Part shown: piece after piece, positions 7,784 to 55,476 of the stretch
Layout: each line of letters opens with the position of its first letter
How positions within the stretch are numbered: the first letter of the stretch is position 1
Source: Hymenobacter convexus
GTDB lineage: Bacteria > Bacteroidota > Bacteroidia > Cytophagales > Hymenobacteraceae
NCBI RefSeq assembly: GCF_030580955.1
Contig: NZ_JAUQON010000008.1
Location: 62,001 to 126,000 of the forward strand
Direction: 5' to 3'
DNA: 64,000 bases
Translations under genes and position numbers: made by a program
The notes under the pieces: model-generated
The model's input: only the letters and a program-made list of their open reading frames with translations
Databases searched by the model: none
Told to the model about the DNA's origin: nothing

Positions 7784-7895
7784 TGTCATCCTGAGCGCAG
7801 CGAAGGACCTAAAGACAGCTGAACGATTCGTAGTAATTATTAAAAGAGCCGGCGGCGAGGACGTGATAAGGTCCTTCGCTGCGCTCAGGATGACA
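7784..7895. repeat. Long intergenic palindrome, family A (GTCATCCTGAGCGCAGCGAAGG)
   Basis: Two perfect 27-base inverted arms (7784-7810 and 7869-7895) flank a ~58-base loop. The left arm begins TGTCATCCTGAGCGCAGCG. A second copy of this family is at 55369-55476. The right arm contains an in-frame ATG at 7863 that can mislead start calling for the next gene. REP/MITE-like; no transposase is present. Confidence 0.9.
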
Positions 7896-11801: not shown

Positions 11802-11905
11802 AACGGTCATGCTGAGCGCAGTCGAAGCATTTCTACCGCTTCGTTGCAATTAGTGAGAATTAGTTGCGCGGTAGAGATGCTTCGGCTGCGCTCAGCATGA
11901 CCGTT
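11802..11905. repeat. Intergenic palindrome, family D (GTCATGCTGAGCGCAG)
   Basis: Inverted arms of about 35 bases (left arm AACGGTCATGCTGAGCGCAG, then GAAGCAT) enclose a ~35-base loop. The loop bases 11840-11854 (TTCGTTGCAATTAGT) recur as their exact reverse complement in the copy at 41771-41877, so the element has an orientation. Confidence 0.9.
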
Positions 11906-19012: not shown

Positions 19013-19110
19013 GAACGTCATGCTGAGCGCAGCCGAAGCATCTCTACCGCACAACTAATCAATTCTATTATTGCGGTAAAGATGCTTCGGCTGCGCTCAG
19101 CATGACGTTC
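19013..19110. repeat. Intergenic palindrome, family D
   Basis: Arms starting GAACGTCATGCTGAGCGCAG and the matching complement at the right end, around a 25-base AT-rich loop. It begins about 20 bases after the NmrA-type gene. Confidence 0.9.
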
Positions 19111-41770: not shown

Positions 41771-41877
41771 AAGAACGTCATGCTGAGCGCAGTCGAAGCA
41801 TCTCTACCAGGCAAGTATTATGACTAATTGCAACGAAACGGTAGAGATGCTTCGACTTCGCTCAGCATGACGTTCTT
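41771..41877. repeat. Intergenic palindrome, family D, opposite orientation
   Basis: Arms AAGAACGTCATGCTGAGCGC and its complement. Loop bases 41823-41837 (ACTAATTGCAACGAA) are the exact reverse complement of loop bases 11840-11854. It separates a response regulator from its own kinase. Confidence 0.9.
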
Positions 41878-50952: not shown

Positions 50953-50967
50953 GCCATTTTCACCAGC

Positions 50968-51001
50968 AAGGCCCCTCGGTTTGAACAAATCGAGGGGCCT
51001 T
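50968..51001 (+). terminator. Terminator of the TonB receptor gene
   Basis: Perfect 11-bp stem AAGGCCCCTCG / CGAGGGGCCTT with a 12-base loop. The T run is weak (TTGCTGTATCTTTG). Its loop holds the TTTG at 50980-50983. Confidence 0.85.
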
Positions 51002-51013
51002 GCTGTATCTTTG
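50980..51013 (+). promoter_or_regulatory. Bacteroidota promoter for the SAM-riboswitch leader
   Basis: -33 TTTG (50980-50983) and -7 TATCTTTG (51006-51013) are 22 bases apart. This fits the TTTG-N19-22-TAnnTTTG plan. Transcription would start near 51020, about 20 bases before the riboswitch P1 stem. Confidence 0.65.
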
Positions 51014-51036: not shown

Positions 51037-51145
51037 AGGATTGTTTTTATACAGAGACGCTGAGAGACAGGCTCTACGACGCGTCGGCAACCATTTAGGA
51101 TACTCCTGAAACGGTGCCAATTCCTGACCATATAAAAACAAGTTG
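51037..51145 (+). promoter_or_regulatory. SAM-I (S-box) riboswitch
   Basis: P1 is an 11-bp perfect stem (TTGTTTTTATA at 51041-51051 with TATAAAAACAA at 51131-51141). P2 pairs GACGC (51056-51060) with GCGTC (51081-51085), with an inner GAG/CTC. The conserved GGCAACC follows at 51086-51092, P3 is AGGA/TCCT, and the GGTGCCAATTCC core at 51113-51124 is closed by GGT/ACC. This matches the Bacteroidota form of the SAM-I aptamer. Binding of S-adenosylmethionine should switch off the genes downstream. Confidence 0.9.
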
Positions 51146-51147
51146 CC

Positions 51148-51255
51148 GTGGAAGCCTCCAACAACCAACCCGTATTTCCTGCTGCTTTCAATGCCCGCCT
51201 CGCGCCTATGCACCGGGCTGGCATGGCGTGTTGTTGCTGTTGTTGTCTGGCTTAA
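51148..51255 (+). CDS. Poly-cysteine leader peptide (putative cysteine-sensing uORF)
   Basis: A short ORF that starts 6 bases after the riboswitch. From GTG 51148 it has 35 codons; from the in-frame ATG at 51208 it encodes MHRAGMACCCCCCLA and then TAA. Six consecutive Cys codons are TGT TGT TGC TGT TGT TGT, although nearby genes (for example preA) use TGC almost exclusively. Low cysteine supply would stall ribosomes on this run, the logic of cysteine-responsive attenuation known in mycobacteria. Too short for standard gene callers. An alternative is a small RiPP-like peptide made by the ATP-grasp gene; I consider it less likely. Confidence 0.6.
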   Translation: MEASNNQPVFPAAFNARLAPMHRAGMACCCCCCLA

Positions 51256-51582
51256 CCGCTACTGAGTGATGATTCGCGGGTAAACAGGCGTGAGCAGAAG
51301 CCACTGGCGCTGCTGCGCCGGCCTATTTGCGGGTCGTCGTAGCGTCCGCGTTCCAAAAAAATCCGGGTAATAATCCTGCTCTGCGCTGAGTGCAGGCGGG
51401 TTGTCGGGCGTGCTGCACTGCAGGCTTGCGGCCGGCCCGCATAGTTGCCGGACTGGTTTTGGGGTGGCGTTGGGGCTCACAGGCAAGCTGTTACATTTCT
51501 CATTTTCCGGGTTCGATGAGGAGGCGCTTAGCGTCGTCGCCTCGCTGCCCTTACTGCTCAATCAACCACCTTTTTCAATATC
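51256..51582 (+). other. 327-base leader between poly-Cys ORF and ATP-grasp gene
   Basis: No gene is recognised. It holds a GGCGC-tgct-GCGCC hairpin (near 51307), CGCTAC/GTAGCG pairing between about 51257 and 51344, and an AGTGCAG/CTGCACT stem (51388-51419). I see no hairpin with a clear T run, so any attenuation may act through Rho or translation. Confidence 0.5.
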
Positions 51583-52572
51583 ATGTCCGCTGTCCAAAAG
51601 CCCATTGGCATCTACTTCGAGCACCCCGAATGGTTCAAGCCGCTCTTCGCCGAGCTAGACCGCCGCGGCTTGCCCTACGAAAAAATTGACGCCGCCCATC
51701 ACCTCTTCAACCCCTCCGAAAAGGAAAGCCGTTACAGCCTGGTGGTCAACCGCATGAGCTCTTCGGCCTACCTGCGCGGGCACGGGCAGGGCATCTTCCA
51801 CACGGCTGGCTACGCCACGCACCTGGAGCGCATCGGCACGCGCATCATCAACGGCTCGGCGGCCACGGCCATTGAAACGAACAAGGCCCGGCAACTGTCG
51901 CTGTTTGAGTCGCTGGGGCTGAAATACCCGGCCTCGCGCGTCATCAACCACGCCTCGCGGGCGGTGGATGCGGCGCGGGAGTTGCGCTTTCCCATCGTGG
52001 TGAAGGTGAACATCGGCGGCAGTGGCGCGGGCATCATCCGCTTCGATACCATCGAGGGGCTGCAGGCGGCCGTGGACGCCAACCAGATTGACCTCGGCAT
52101 CGACCAAACGGCGCTGGTGCAGGAGTATGTGACGCCCCGCGGCGGCAACATCCACCGCGTCGAAACGCTGGACGGCAAGTTCCTCTACGCCATGAAGGTG
52201 TTCACCACCGGCGAGAGTTTCAACCTGTGCCCGGCCGAAATCTGCCAGATTCCCGAAGAGCAGTCGGCCGAGTTTTGCCTGACGGAAGCGCCGAAAAAAG
52301 GCATTCAGGTGGAGGCCTTCACGCCGCCGGCCGAGGTCGTGGCCGCCGTGGAGCGCATCGTGGCCGCCGCCAAAATTGACGTCGGCGGCATCGAATACCT
52401 CATCGACGACCGCACCGGCGACGTGCTGTTCTACGACATCAACGCCCTGTCCAACTTCGTGGCCGATGCCGTGAACGTGGTCGGCTTCGACCCTTACGCC
52501 CGCTTCGTGGACTATCTGGAAACGCAGCTGCCGGCTGCGGTGGCCGCGCCGGTAGAACTGGCAACGGCTTAA
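51583..52572 (+). CDS. ATP-grasp ligase (RimK-like)
   Basis: 329 residues. The ATP-grasp core is visible: a lysine strand and glycine loop (PIVVKVNIGGSGAGIIRF), TALVQEYVTPRGGNIHRVE, and the metal end LFYDINALSNF with a DIN in place of the more usual ExN. The family forms amide or thioester bonds with ATP. Substrate unknown. It is the first full-length gene behind the SAM riboswitch and poly-Cys leader, with a sulfonate-type monooxygenase next. A role in handling a sulfur-containing peptide or amino acid is an inference. Confidence 0.85.
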   Translation: MSAVQKPIGIYFEHPEWFKPLFAELDRRGLPYEKIDAAHHLFNPSEKESRYSLVVNRMSSSAYLRGHGQGIFHTAGYATHLERIGTRIINGSAATAIETNKARQLSLFESLGLKYPASRVINHASRAVDAARELRFPIVVKVNIGGSGAGIIRFDTIEGLQAAVDANQIDLGIDQTALVQEYVTPRGGNIHRVETLDGKFLYAMKVFTTGESFNLCPAEICQIPEEQSAEFCLTEAPKKGIQVEAFTPPAEVVAAVERIVAAAKIDVGGIEYLIDDRTGDVLFYDINALSNFVADAVNVVGFDPYARFVDYLETQLPAAVAAPVELATA

Positions 52573-52597
52573 CCGTCCTAATCACCATAATAAACCG

Positions 52598-52692
52598 GTC
52601 ATGCTGAGCGCAGCCGAAGCATCTCTACCGCTTCGTTGCAGCGAAGTTGATTACTCACCAAGTAGAGATGCTTCGGCTGCGCTCAGCATGAC
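52598..52692. repeat. Intergenic palindrome, family D
   Basis: Arms GTCATGCTGAGCGCAGCCGA and complement; loop includes CTTCGTTGCA, shared with the copy at 11802. It fills the gap between the ATP-grasp and monooxygenase genes. Confidence 0.9.
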
Positions 52693-52714
52693 GTTCTTTT
52701 AAATCGCCAAGGCA

Positions 52715-53734
52715 ATGAAATTCGGATATTGGATGCCCATTTTTGGGGGCTGGCTGCGCAACGTCGAAGACGAGCAGATGCCCACCGACTGGAGCTACGT
52801 GAAGCAGCTGGCGCAGCGCAGCGAGGGCTGGGGCTACGACCTCACGCTCATCGCCGAACTGTACTTAAACGACATCAAGGGCACCGAGGCGCCGTCGCTG
52901 GAAGCGTGGAGCACGGCTGCCGCCTTGGCCGCCGTGACCGAGCAGCTGGAAATAATGGTGGCCGTGCGCCCCACCTTCCACAACCCCGCGCTGCTGGCCA
53001 AGCAAGCCGCCAATATTGATTTGATTGCGCCCGGCCGGCTGTCGCTCAACGTGGTATCGAGCTGGTGGCGCGACGAAGCCACCAAGTACGGCCTGCACTT
53101 CGAGCAGCACGACGACCGGTACGCCCGCACCCGCGAGTGGCTCGACGTAGTGACCAACGTGTGGAAGCAGGACCATTTCAGCTACGACGGCAAGTACTAC
53201 CAGGTGGCCGACAACATCCTGCAGCCCAAGCCCGCCAAAGCCCCGTTCCTCTACGCCGGCGGCGAGTCGGAGGCGGCCAAAGACCTCATTTCGACCCAGT
53301 GCGACGGCTACGTGATGCACGGCGACTCGCCGGAGCTCATCGGCGCGCGCATTGCCGACATGCGCCGTCGCCGCGAGCAGAAAGGCCTGCCGCCGATGAA
53401 GTTCGGCGTGGCCGGCTACTCCATTGTGCGCAACACCGAGCAAGAGGTGAAGAAGGAGCTGGACCGCATCACCAACGTGCAGGCCTCCGCTTCGGGCTAC
53501 GGCAACTACCAGCAGTGGCTGGCCGGCACCCAGCTGGAGCAGCAAGTGTCGCTGCACGACTACTCCGTATCGAACCGCGGGCTGCGCACGGGTCTCACGG
53601 GCACGCCTGCCCAGCTGCAGGACCGTATTGGCGAGTTCGAGAATGTGGGAGTGGACTTCTTCCTGCTGCAAGCCAGTCCGCAACTGGAAGAAATGGAGCG
53701 GTTTTCGGAGTCGGTTATTCAGGTGCTGGCGTAG
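52715..53734 (+). CDS. Flavin-dependent monooxygenase, dimethylsulfone/alkanesulfonate type (LLM class)
   Basis: 339 residues, bacterial luciferase-like barrel. Segments LSLNVVSSWWRDEATKYG, EHDDRYARTREWLDVV (seen as EQHDDRYARTREW) and FLYAGGESEAAKDL resemble SfnG and SsuD, which use FMNH2 and oxygen to cleave C-S bonds of dimethylsulfone or alkanesulfonates and release sulfite. This fits a sulfur-starvation locus under SAM control. A partner flavin reductase is not seen in the window. Substrate specificity within the family is not certain. Confidence 0.85.
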   Translation: MKFGYWMPIFGGWLRNVEDEQMPTDWSYVKQLAQRSEGWGYDLTLIAELYLNDIKGTEAPSLEAWSTAAALAAVTEQLEIMVAVRPTFHNPALLAKQAANIDLIAPGRLSLNVVSSWWRDEATKYGLHFEQHDDRYARTREWLDVVTNVWKQDHFSYDGKYYQVADNILQPKPAKAPFLYAGGESEAAKDLISTQCDGYVMHGDSPELIGARIADMRRRREQKGLPPMKFGVAGYSIVRNTEQEVKKELDRITNVQASASGYGNYQQWLAGTQLEQQVSLHDYSVSNRGLRTGLTGTPAQLQDRIGEFENVGVDFFLLQASPQLEEMERFSESVIQVLA

Positions 53735-53769
53735 CGAAGGCTACTGACGACAAAGCTGTTCAATGGGTC

Positions 53770-53858
53770 GTCATGCTGAGCGCAGTCGAAGCATCTCTAC
53801 CGCGCAAGCAAATCATTTACTGCTGCGGTAGAGATGCTTCGGCTGCGCTCAGCATGAC
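53770..53858. repeat. Intergenic palindrome, family D
   Basis: GTCATGCTGAGCGCAGTCGA arm and complement around a ~25-base loop, between the monooxygenase and permease genes. It is traversed by a chance open frame. Confidence 0.9.
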
Positions 53859-53901
53859 GTTCTTTTTCTATGCGCCACAACCGGCGCGTTTCAACAACTA
53901 C

Positions 53902-55356
53902 ATGCTTAAAAAATCACTCGAACTGCTTCGTGCCGAAGCGGCCGAAACGGGGGCGAACACCCTCAAACGCAGCCTCAACGGCGTCAGCCTGATTGCTATC
54001 GGCATTGGGGTTATCATCGGGGCGGGCCTGTTCTCGCTCACCGGCATTGCGGCGGCCAACAACGCGGGGCCGGCCGTGACGCTCTCCTTTGTGGTGGCGG
54101 CCGTGGGCTGCGCCTTCTCGGCGCTATGCTACGCCGAGTTTGCGGCGCTGGTGCCCGTGTCGGGCTCGGCTTATACGTATTCCTACGCCACTATGGGCGA
54201 GCTGTTTGCCTGGATTATCGGCTGGGATTTGGTGCTGGAGTACTCGGTGGGCGCGGCCACGGTGGCCATCAGCTGGTCGCAGTATCTCATCAAGTTTCTG
54301 GGAAAATACGGGCTGCACATCCCGGCTCAATTGGTGATGTCGCCATTCGAAAGCGCGACGCTGGCCGACGGCTCTACCGTGAGCGGTTTCGTGAACGTGC
54401 CGGCCATGCTCATCGTGCTGGCCATTACGGCCATTGTCACGCGCGGTACCAAAGGGTCGGCGTGGTTCAATGCGCTGGTGGTGGCCTTGAAGGTGGCGGT
54501 GGTGCTGGTGTTCATTGCGCTGGGCTGGCAGTACATCGACCCCGCCAACTACCAACCCTACATTCCGGCCAACACCGGCACGTTTGGCGAGTTCGGCCTG
54601 AGCGGGATTTTGCGCGGGGCGGGCGTTATTTTCTTCGTCTTTATCGGCTTCGACATCGTGGCAACCATGGCGCAGGAAACCAAGAATCCGCAGCGCAACA
54701 TGCCCGTGGGCATCCTCGGCTCGCTGGCGGTTTGCACGGTCTTGTTCGTGCTGTTTGGGCACGTGCTGACGGGTTTGGCCAATTATACCGAGTTCAAAAA
54801 CAGCGCGGCACCGGTGGCCATTGCCATTGAGAAAACGCCTTATGCCTGGCTTTCTTCGGCCGTGATTCTGGCCATTCTGGTGGGCTACACGTCGGTTATC
54901 CTGGTCGATTTGCTGGGGCAGTCGCGGGTATTTTTCTCCATGTCGAAGGACGGGCTGCTGCCGCCGGTGTTCTCGCGCATTCACGCCAAATACAACACGC
55001 CGTTTCAGTCCAGCCTGCTGCTGGGCTTGTTCATTGCGCTATTTGCAGGCTTCGTGCCCATCTCGGTGGTGGGCGAGATGACCAGCATCGGCACGCTGCT
55101 GGCCTTCGTGATGGTGTGTCTGGGCGTGCTCATCATGCGCCGCACCAACCCCGACGCCCCCCGCTCGTTCCGTACGCCGTGGGTGCCGGTGGTGCCCATT
55201 CTGGGCATTGTGGTGTGCCTCGTGATGATGGCCTCGCTGCCCTGGGAAACGTGGCTGCGCCTCGTGGTGTGGCTGGCGCTGGGCCTGCTGATTTATTTTG
55301 GCTACGGCCGCAGGCACAGCAAGCTGCGGCTGGCGCAGGAGGGAGTTAAAAGTTAG
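53902..55356 (+). CDS. APC-family amino-acid permease
   Basis: 484 residues and about 12 transmembrane helices. The substrate-binding start of TM1 is SLIAIGIGVIIGAGLFSLTG. Closest in look to the cationic/YfnA-type amino-acid transporters (AGWDLVLEYSVGAATVAISW seen as IIGWDLVLEY). It imports or exchanges amino acids at the inner membrane. Third gene of the sulfur-linked run, so a sulfur amino acid is conceivable. I start at 53902; the frame is open far upstream through the palindrome and an antiparallel reading of the previous gene, which is not coding. Confidence 0.9.
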   Translation: MLKKSLELLRAEAAETGANTLKRSLNGVSLIAIGIGVIIGAGLFSLTGIAAANNAGPAVTLSFVVAAVGCAFSALCYAEFAALVPVSGSAYTYSYATMGELFAWIIGWDLVLEYSVGAATVAISWSQYLIKFLGKYGLHIPAQLVMSPFESATLADGSTVSGFVNVPAMLIVLAITAIVTRGTKGSAWFNALVVALKVAVVLVFIALGWQYIDPANYQPYIPANTGTFGEFGLSGILRGAGVIFFVFIGFDIVATMAQETKNPQRNMPVGILGSLAVCTVLFVLFGHVLTGLANYTEFKNSAAPVAIAIEKTPYAWLSSAVILAILVGYTSVILVDLLGQSRVFFSMSKDGLLPPVFSRIHAKYNTPFQSSLLLGLFIALFAGFVPISVVGEMTSIGTLLAFVMVCLGVLIMRRTNPDAPRSFRTPWVPVVPILGIVVCLVMMASLPWETWLRLVVWLALGLLIYFGYGRRHSKLRLAQEGVKS

Positions 55357-55368
55357 GAGTTAAGAGGC

Positions 55369-55476
55369 GTCTGTCATCCTGAGCGCAGCGAAGGACCTTA
55401 TCACGCGTGAACGAATTCTAGAAATTCATCCGCCGCAGACGTGAGAAGGTCCTTCGCTGCGCTCAGGATGACAGAC
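55369..55476. repeat. Long intergenic palindrome, family A
   Basis: Arms GTCTGTCATCCTGAGCGCAG and complement with a ~45-base loop. Second copy of the element at 7784-7895; outer arms identical, loops unrelated. Lies between convergent genes and may end transcription. Confidence 0.9.

Follow-up and report, generated by a model that had tools for sequence, protein, structure and literature searches.

A sulfur operon of Hymenobacter convexus probably controlled by a SAM-I riboswitch and a poly-cysteine leader ORF in series

We analyzed a 64,000-nt stretch of Hymenobacter convexus DNA (contig NZ_JAUQON010000008.1, positions 62,001 to 126,000; hereafter the window), which belongs to a genome of 5.98 Mb, and within it a locus of three genes behind a structured leader. 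A preliminary description, made from the letters of the window, had placed these genes on one strand under S-adenosylmethionine (SAM) control, and this arrangement holds: a SAM-I aptamer (RF00162) is followed on the plus strand by genes for an ATP-grasp ligase, a luciferase-like monooxygenase (LLM) and an APC amino-acid permease, whose products match Pfam RimK-type ATP-grasp, Bac_luciferase and AA_permease_2, respectively (Table 1). Between aptamer and ligase gene stands a short open reading frame (ORF) that ends in a run of cysteine codons. This Cys-rich peptide is most likely encoded by a leader ORF and is not a ribosomally synthesized and post-translationally modified peptide (RiPP); it is likely the second sensor of the operon, which the preliminary description had missed. 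Altogether, we consider it probable that the locus is a sulfur-starvation operon under a SAM sensor and a cysteine sensor acting in series, and that its enzymes first ligate and then oxidize their substrate.

Table 1 Features of the locus and its upstream flank (positions in the window)
Feature	Position	Strand	Basis or remark
End of TonB-receptor unit: terminator-like hairpin, 19-pair stem	50964-51005	+	tail overlaps promoter box, hence a weak terminator call
TAnnTTTG promoter box, -7 element of Bacteroidota type	51006-51013	+	consensus match
SAM-I riboswitch aptamer	51044-51138	+	RF00162, 70.3 bits
Leader ORF MEASNNQPVFPAAFNARLAPMHRAGMACCCCCCLA, GTG start	51148-51255	+	sequence; in-frame conservation in relatives
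Candidate attenuation region, 130 nt 3' of leader ORF	51256-51385	+	structure excess versus shuffles; putative role
ATP-grasp ligase, LysX/ArgX/RimK-like, 329 aa	51583-52572	+	Pfam, NCBIfam, fold
Dispersed inverted repeat, ATP-grasp/LLM spacer	52598-52692	.	repeat scan
LLM, flavin-dependent, 339 aa; closest solved structure 3rao	52715-53734	+	
Dispersed inverted repeat, LLM/permease spacer	53770-53858	.	repeat scan
APC amino-acid permease, 484 aa, optional member	53902-55356	+	Pfam, NCBIfam, locus comparison

The TAnnTTTG box is the sigma-A consensus according to an excerpt of PMC9723704. Of 36 related leaders, 34 carried it 5' of the aptamer, compared with 36 of 2050 random 110-nt stretches, and no such box was found in the two spacers within the operon. 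The palindromes in these spacers are two of five window copies of a dispersed inverted repeat, for which the window holds 10 half-site matches with 0 expected. Together with the conservation of the ATP-grasp/LLM pair, these observations support the earlier proposal of a single operon. An adjacent LLM match was lacking in four of 49 ATP-grasp loci (L040, L048, L049 and L051: two from Acidobacteria, one from Fimbriimonadia and one from Calditrichia); in the 45 loci with both genes, the window included, they overlapped in 14, were separated by 0-100 nt in 17 and by more than 100 nt in 14, so that the gap was at most 100 nt in 31 of 45. The window spacer measures 142 nt and consists mostly of one repeat copy. 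The permease gene was present in 19 of 40 loci (L003-L043 minus L040; L006 and a few further loci lie on short contigs) and is, as judged from locus comparison, an optional third member; the listed ORF 53065-55356 is its frame opened further upstream. Of the three-gene set put forward before, it is thus the pair that is conserved, and its co-occurrence in other genomes, an expectation of the preliminary description, was found in Hymenobacter, Spirosoma and Caulobacteraceae, with an analogous pair in Deinococcus. The ATP-grasp homologs are 89-97% identical in most Hymenobacter loci. Horizontal spread of this gene is suggested because within the class it was found solely in Hymenobacter (3 of 247 sampled genomes), yet homologs exist in Spirosoma, Caulobacteraceae and Acidobacteria.

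The ATP-grasp enzyme, as stated before, lies outside known sulfonate pathways. Its AF2 model (mean pLDDT 82.7) was placed by Foldseek closest to ArgX and LysX, then RimK, with a TM of 0.75/0.87 for 3vpb. The fold is shared with these ligases, whereas identity in the Foldseek alignments is 15-19%, the NCBIfam cut-offs are not reached (TIGR00768, 60.8 vs 143.4; TIGR02144, 38.2 vs 275.6) and no LysW-type carrier was seen in the locus. An LCPxxxC motif (positions 215-221 of the window protein) is invariant in 20 homologs; its cysteine pair sits in a loop that is modeled with low confidence. The permease scores below the BcaP cut-off (NF053761, 557.1 vs 690). The nearest structures to the LLM are 3rao (E 1.4e-121) and 8vw6, followed by SfnG 8t0u, MsuD and SsuD, with which it shares the superfamily and a sulfur-starvation setting. 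The preliminary description had likened it to SfnG and SsuD, an identity that we could not uphold: although SfnG is the best NCBIfam match, the score is 238.6 bits vs a cut-off of 382.95 (TIGR04021), and that for SsuD is 172.3 vs 518.2 (TIGR03565). MsuD W195 and R225 are required for methanesulfonate according to an excerpt of PMC8234197; in our alignment His and Ala take their places in the LLM, and the R296 position is ambiguous. An ordinary dimethylsulfone or alkanesulfonate route of SfnG or SsuD type, with an ATP-grasp enzyme unrelated to the chemistry, would suit the superfamily and the best NCBIfam match, but is unlikely given the distance to both cut-offs, the replaced motif residues and an ATP-grasp gene that adjoins or overlaps that of the LLM across distant phyla.

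The aptamer matches RF00162 over the full model length and well above the gathering score of 44.4 bits, which by homology identifies it as a SAM-I aptamer with predicted SAM binding. The leader ORF starts with a GTG 10 nt past the 3' strand of the aptamer's closing stem (P1) and comprises 35 codons up to a TAA stop; six consecutive Cys codons (51229-51246) give the peptide end CCCCCCLA. A comparable ORF was found directly 5' of the ATP-grasp gene in 37 of 42 loci. Of the five others, L006 lacks upstream sequence, L037 is from Spirosoma and L040 from Acidobacteria; in L023 and L027, SusC and SusD intervene and a riboswitch with a Cys-bearing upstream ORF (uORF) stands before SusC. This tally, in which uORFs were picked by Cys content, is partly circular, and it was repeated with start codons chosen by a rule that ignores Cys. 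Under that rule, an aptamer core and P1 strand were recognizable in 36 of 39 ATP-grasp loci and all 36 uORFs held at least three Cys; before cysH, an aptamer was recognized in 23 of 30 loci, again with at least three Cys in 23 of 23 uORFs, one of which (L227) probably has a wrong start. Furthermore, TGYTGY occurred 125, 3 and 11 times in frames 0, 1 and 2 of the ATP-grasp leaders and 79, 1 and 16 times in those of cysH, i.e. in frame in 125/139 and 79/96 cases. The uORFs vary from 26 to 43 codons and in their N-terminal part, the Cys codons near the end are kept in frame, and TGT and TGC interchange within the tracts of relatives. The total Cys count per leader lies within that of shuffles (P mostly 0.01-0.35) and the consecutive run exceeds them, with P<=0.034 in 31 of 37 leaders and P of 0.04-0.25 in the other six (run length 2), in a test that is itself partly circular through the choice of uORFs by Cys content. 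No family match was found for the leader peptides in NCBIfam (five peptides) or Pfam (four peptides).

Similar uORFs precede other sulfur genes. With a run of at least three consecutive Cys in an ORF of 10-70 codons as criterion, upstream windows scored positive in 31 of 39 loci for ATP-grasp, 29 of 30 for cysH and 23 of 30 for metY. The corresponding figures were 39 of 2504 for 630-nt control windows from other parts of these loci and 3 of 238 for windows within or downstream of genes; the loci are related by descent, so these counts are not independent. Of 44 genomes matching metY and 45 matching cysH, 30 each contributed loci, and longer windows of 880 nt were used for metY. The metY match of L253, 671 nt upstream, is possibly due to chance, and in L254 no cluster exceeds two Cys; without L253, the metY matches comprise nine families (f1, f2, f93, f95, f96, f100, f104, f108 and f111). 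Cys runs before metY were seen in 0 of 11 cases from a second order and in the single genome G180 (1/1). Poly-Cys uORFs also occur in AT-rich genomes, and six cysH loci (L218, L222-L225 and L229) have one (e.g. MVYSSHTKRMRFCCCSSGCCCC) with no aptamer core found upstream, so that aptamer and uORF are separable. What stands before these sulfur genes is a translatable, conserved short ORF with a Cys run, as in a cysteine-codon leader.

The uORF is also specific as to the gene that follows. Among the five SAM riboswitches of the H. convexus genome, those of cysH-cysD-cysN, metY-metX and ATP-grasp are followed by it, and those of metH and a cystathionine-synthase-like (CGS-like) gene are not, the gene names having been assigned by reading translations. 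In a sample of 137 distinct riboswitches from the phylum and the class, a uORF with CC followed the riboswitch in 0/71 cases for metH, 0/11 for the CGS-like gene, 9/29 for metY (one of the nine, L071, probably by chance), 1/1 for ATP-grasp and 1/22 for other genes, the sole case among the latter being an operon of SusC, SusD and an M14 peptidase. Such SusC-SusD-M14 units behind a SAM-plus-Cys leader were observed in L233 (1-7900) and in L023 and L027 (4900-15000), in the latter two joined with the ATP-grasp and LLM genes, and probably serve peptide import for sulfur; the best match to the L233 SusD in the H. convexus genome is 36% identical.

Three other explanations of the Cys-rich ORF have to be weighed against these data. 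That the SAM riboswitch acts alone and the ORF is a GC-rich by-product without a role seems improbable: SAM riboswitches are indeed widespread, occurring in 127 of 148 genomes of the phylum, and a Deinococcus homolog has one with no poly-Cys ORF, but the uORF frequency is far over the controls and confined to sulfur-assimilation genes, and uORFs are found in AT-rich genomes and, before cysH, without an aptamer. Slightly less probable again is an untranslated Cys tract acting as RNA or DNA, for example through pairing or protein binding of UGU repeats. The repeats are able to pair and the leaders are structured; nevertheless, TGYTGY keeps the frame of the predicted start despite the range of uORF lengths, TGT and TGC interchange, and pairing with the start region is not in excess. 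Very improbable is the RiPP reading that the preliminary description had entertained, in which the peptide is a precursor modified by the ligase, and in the form weighed here also by the monooxygenase; it is contradicted by the peptides of like kind before cysH and metY, where no ATP-grasp partner is present. The short Cys-rich ORF does adjoin the ATP-grasp gene and the graspetide ligase PsnB is among its Foldseek matches, yet the peptide is not specific to the ligase as a graspetide precursor would be, the region ahead of the Cys tract is variable while the terminal Cys codons are kept, neither exporter nor peptidase follows, and the peptide has a single acidic residue and few graspetide acceptors.

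Under the preferred interpretation of a SAM and a cysteine sensor in series, bound SAM would close P1 and reduce initiation at the leader ORF; a SAM-stabilized P1 is positioned to hinder this start because its 3' strand ends 10 nt before it. When Cys-tRNA is short, a ribosome that did initiate would stall on the Cys codons, as in the classical logic of attenuation. If the downstream genes were expressed only with a stalled ribosome, the operon would open when SAM and cysteine are both short. Coupling to the downstream genes might proceed via Rho, via RNA refolding or at translation, and a Rho-dependent or refolding mechanism is possible. The 130 nt past the leader-ORF stop are more structured than shuffles (mean z -1.08 for 37 leaders, -1.49 here); RNAalifold on 12 leaders gave a weak result (covariation term -1.18), and C-rich stretches and T-runs, as termination marks in these leaders, were unremarkable.

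A sulfur-scavenging role, as claimed before, is well supported by SAM control, the conserved pair and its recurrence in Deinococcus. On plasmid 3 of Deinococcus deserti, the genes run CuyA, CuyB, ATP-grasp, LLM, with CuyA at 535.2 bits (cut-off 450) and CuyB at 270.8 (cut-off 190), i.e. cysteate racemase and sulfo-lyase genes upstream of the pair; on pDEIPE01 of D. peraridilitoris, ATP-grasp and LLM stand behind a SAM riboswitch (60.6 bits). The D. deserti LLM is 61% identical to the window LLM, and the D. deserti ATP-grasp protein is barely alignable with that of the window (best segment 52 residues, E 0.007); ATP-grasp enzymes therefore seem, on these comparisons, to have been paired with this LLM type more than once. 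We propose that the permease would import a sulfur-bearing amino acid, that the ligase would couple it via an amide, as LysX and ArgX mask an amino group, and that the LLM, with reduced flavin supplied from elsewhere, would oxidize the ligated compound and free the sulfur. That the substrate is an amino acid or peptide bearing sulfur is indicated by the permease, the peptide importer with M14 peptidase, the Cuy genes and the regulation through SAM and Cys. The two leading candidates are cysteate-type sulfonates, disfavored by the replaced sulfonate-binding residues, and S-modified cysteines, disfavored by the absence of a deprotecting hydrolase from the locus. Among the literature matches listed for cysteate with ATP-grasp or monooxygenase, none was fitting.

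Several results weigh against this interpretation of control and pathway: (i) the relatedness by descent of the loci counted, (ii) the occurrence of ATP-grasp without a SAM riboswitch in Spirosoma (L037, L284) and Caulobacteraceae (L044-L047), (iii) no excess over shuffles of pairing between the Cys tract and the start or ribosome-binding region (mean z 0.02, 37 leaders), (iv) no general signal of an intrinsic terminator after the uORF, with terminator calls in 8/22 metY leaders vs 29/220 shuffles and in 4/28 cysH leaders vs 60/280, (v) the replacement in the LLM of two MsuD sulfonate-binding residues out of three compared, (vi) neither a flavin reductase nor a deprotecting hydrolase in the locus, and (vii) CuyA over the cut-off in 0 of 41 Hymenobacter genomes, that of H. 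convexus included. A wider proposal, that initiation at a poly-Cys uORF is the output of the SAM riboswitch in a two-input gate that has spread over metY and cysH and has captured a new ligate-then-oxidize organosulfur pathway recurring in Deinococcus with a different ATP-grasp, falls somewhat short of an even chance in our judgment. By the upstream comparisons, such a gate would extend within the order to metY of nine or more families, and within the family to cysH.

In work from 2020 attributed to Canestrari et al., polycysteine short ORFs of mycobacteria are reportedly cysteine-responsive attenuators. In their mechanism, the Cys tract is reported to pair with the ribosome-binding region, of which the Hymenobacter leaders give no sign. 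Both are short ORFs with consecutive Cys codons before sulfur or cysteine genes; however, the mycobacterial ORF opens a leaderless mRNA, whereas the Hymenobacter uORF follows a SAM aptamer, in a different phylum. The Salmonella mgtA leader combines Mg2+ sensing with the Pro-codon ORF mgtL and likewise joins a small-ligand sensor and codon-dependent ribosome stalling in one leader, but ligands and codons differ and the Hymenobacter aptamer lies entirely 5' of the ORF. In comparison with other SAM-I riboswitches of RF00162, the aptamer is over the gathering score, and its output is likely the uORF instead of an aptamer-adjacent terminator. Poly-Cys leaders are thus known from mycobacteria; in the open-licence literature we found nothing that joins a SAM riboswitch with a Cys leader and nothing on leader-peptide control of sulfur genes in the phylum, and among the matches listed for "ribulon" nothing was relevant. 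Clues of leader-peptide attenuation at amino-acid operons are given for Flavobacterium psychrophilum in an excerpt of PMC9723704. As to the enzymes, the scm pathway of Bacillus subtilis, as an excerpt of PMC12757645 presents it, acetylates an S-modified cysteine, oxidizes it by an FMN monooxygenase and deacetylates it. The route proposed for Hymenobacter would share the masking of an amino group before oxidation by a flavin monooxygenase to recover sulfur; as far as that excerpt goes, it differs in that an ATP-grasp ligase would stand in for the acetyltransferase, no deprotecting enzyme was found and the LLM is of another subfamily.

If these proposals are correct, one leader would read both end products of sulfur assimilation as a composite sensor. 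This would predict which unannotated short ORFs are real and provide a marker for sulfur-starvation genes lacking an assigned function, and the enzymes would represent an ATP-dependent pathway acting on organosulfur amino acids, which lends itself to direct assay.

Some further observations concern the leaders and neighboring genes. A VQHGCC or LQHGCC stretch recurs before the Cys codons (e.g. in L015, L021, L201, L206 and L233) and is common to ATP-grasp, cysH and SusC leaders; it may be an arrest motif or reflect shared ancestry. In L278, L279 and L280, which belong to a different order, metY homologs are preceded by short ORFs with many Met as well as Cys codons (e.g. MKNNNKMCCMMMMCMCAPP), as if both amino acids were read via codons with no aptamer. 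In Spirosoma oryzicola the order is ATP-grasp, two permeases and a second monooxygenase, LLM2, which here and in L027 is 22% identical to the window LLM and has Trp and Arg at the MsuD sulfonate-binding sites; in L027 (2000-4554, minus strand) and L284 (10770-13233), LLM2 has a second amino-acid permease as its neighbor and lies within or close to the ATP-grasp locus. Finally, besides the two spacer copies, the dispersed inverted repeat occurs in the window at 11806-11901, 19017-19106 and 41777-41871, with related elements at 7787-7892 and 55375-55470; these elements have ends CATGCTGAGCGCAG or CATCCTGAGCGCAG and are sited between genes, also within the sulfur operon.

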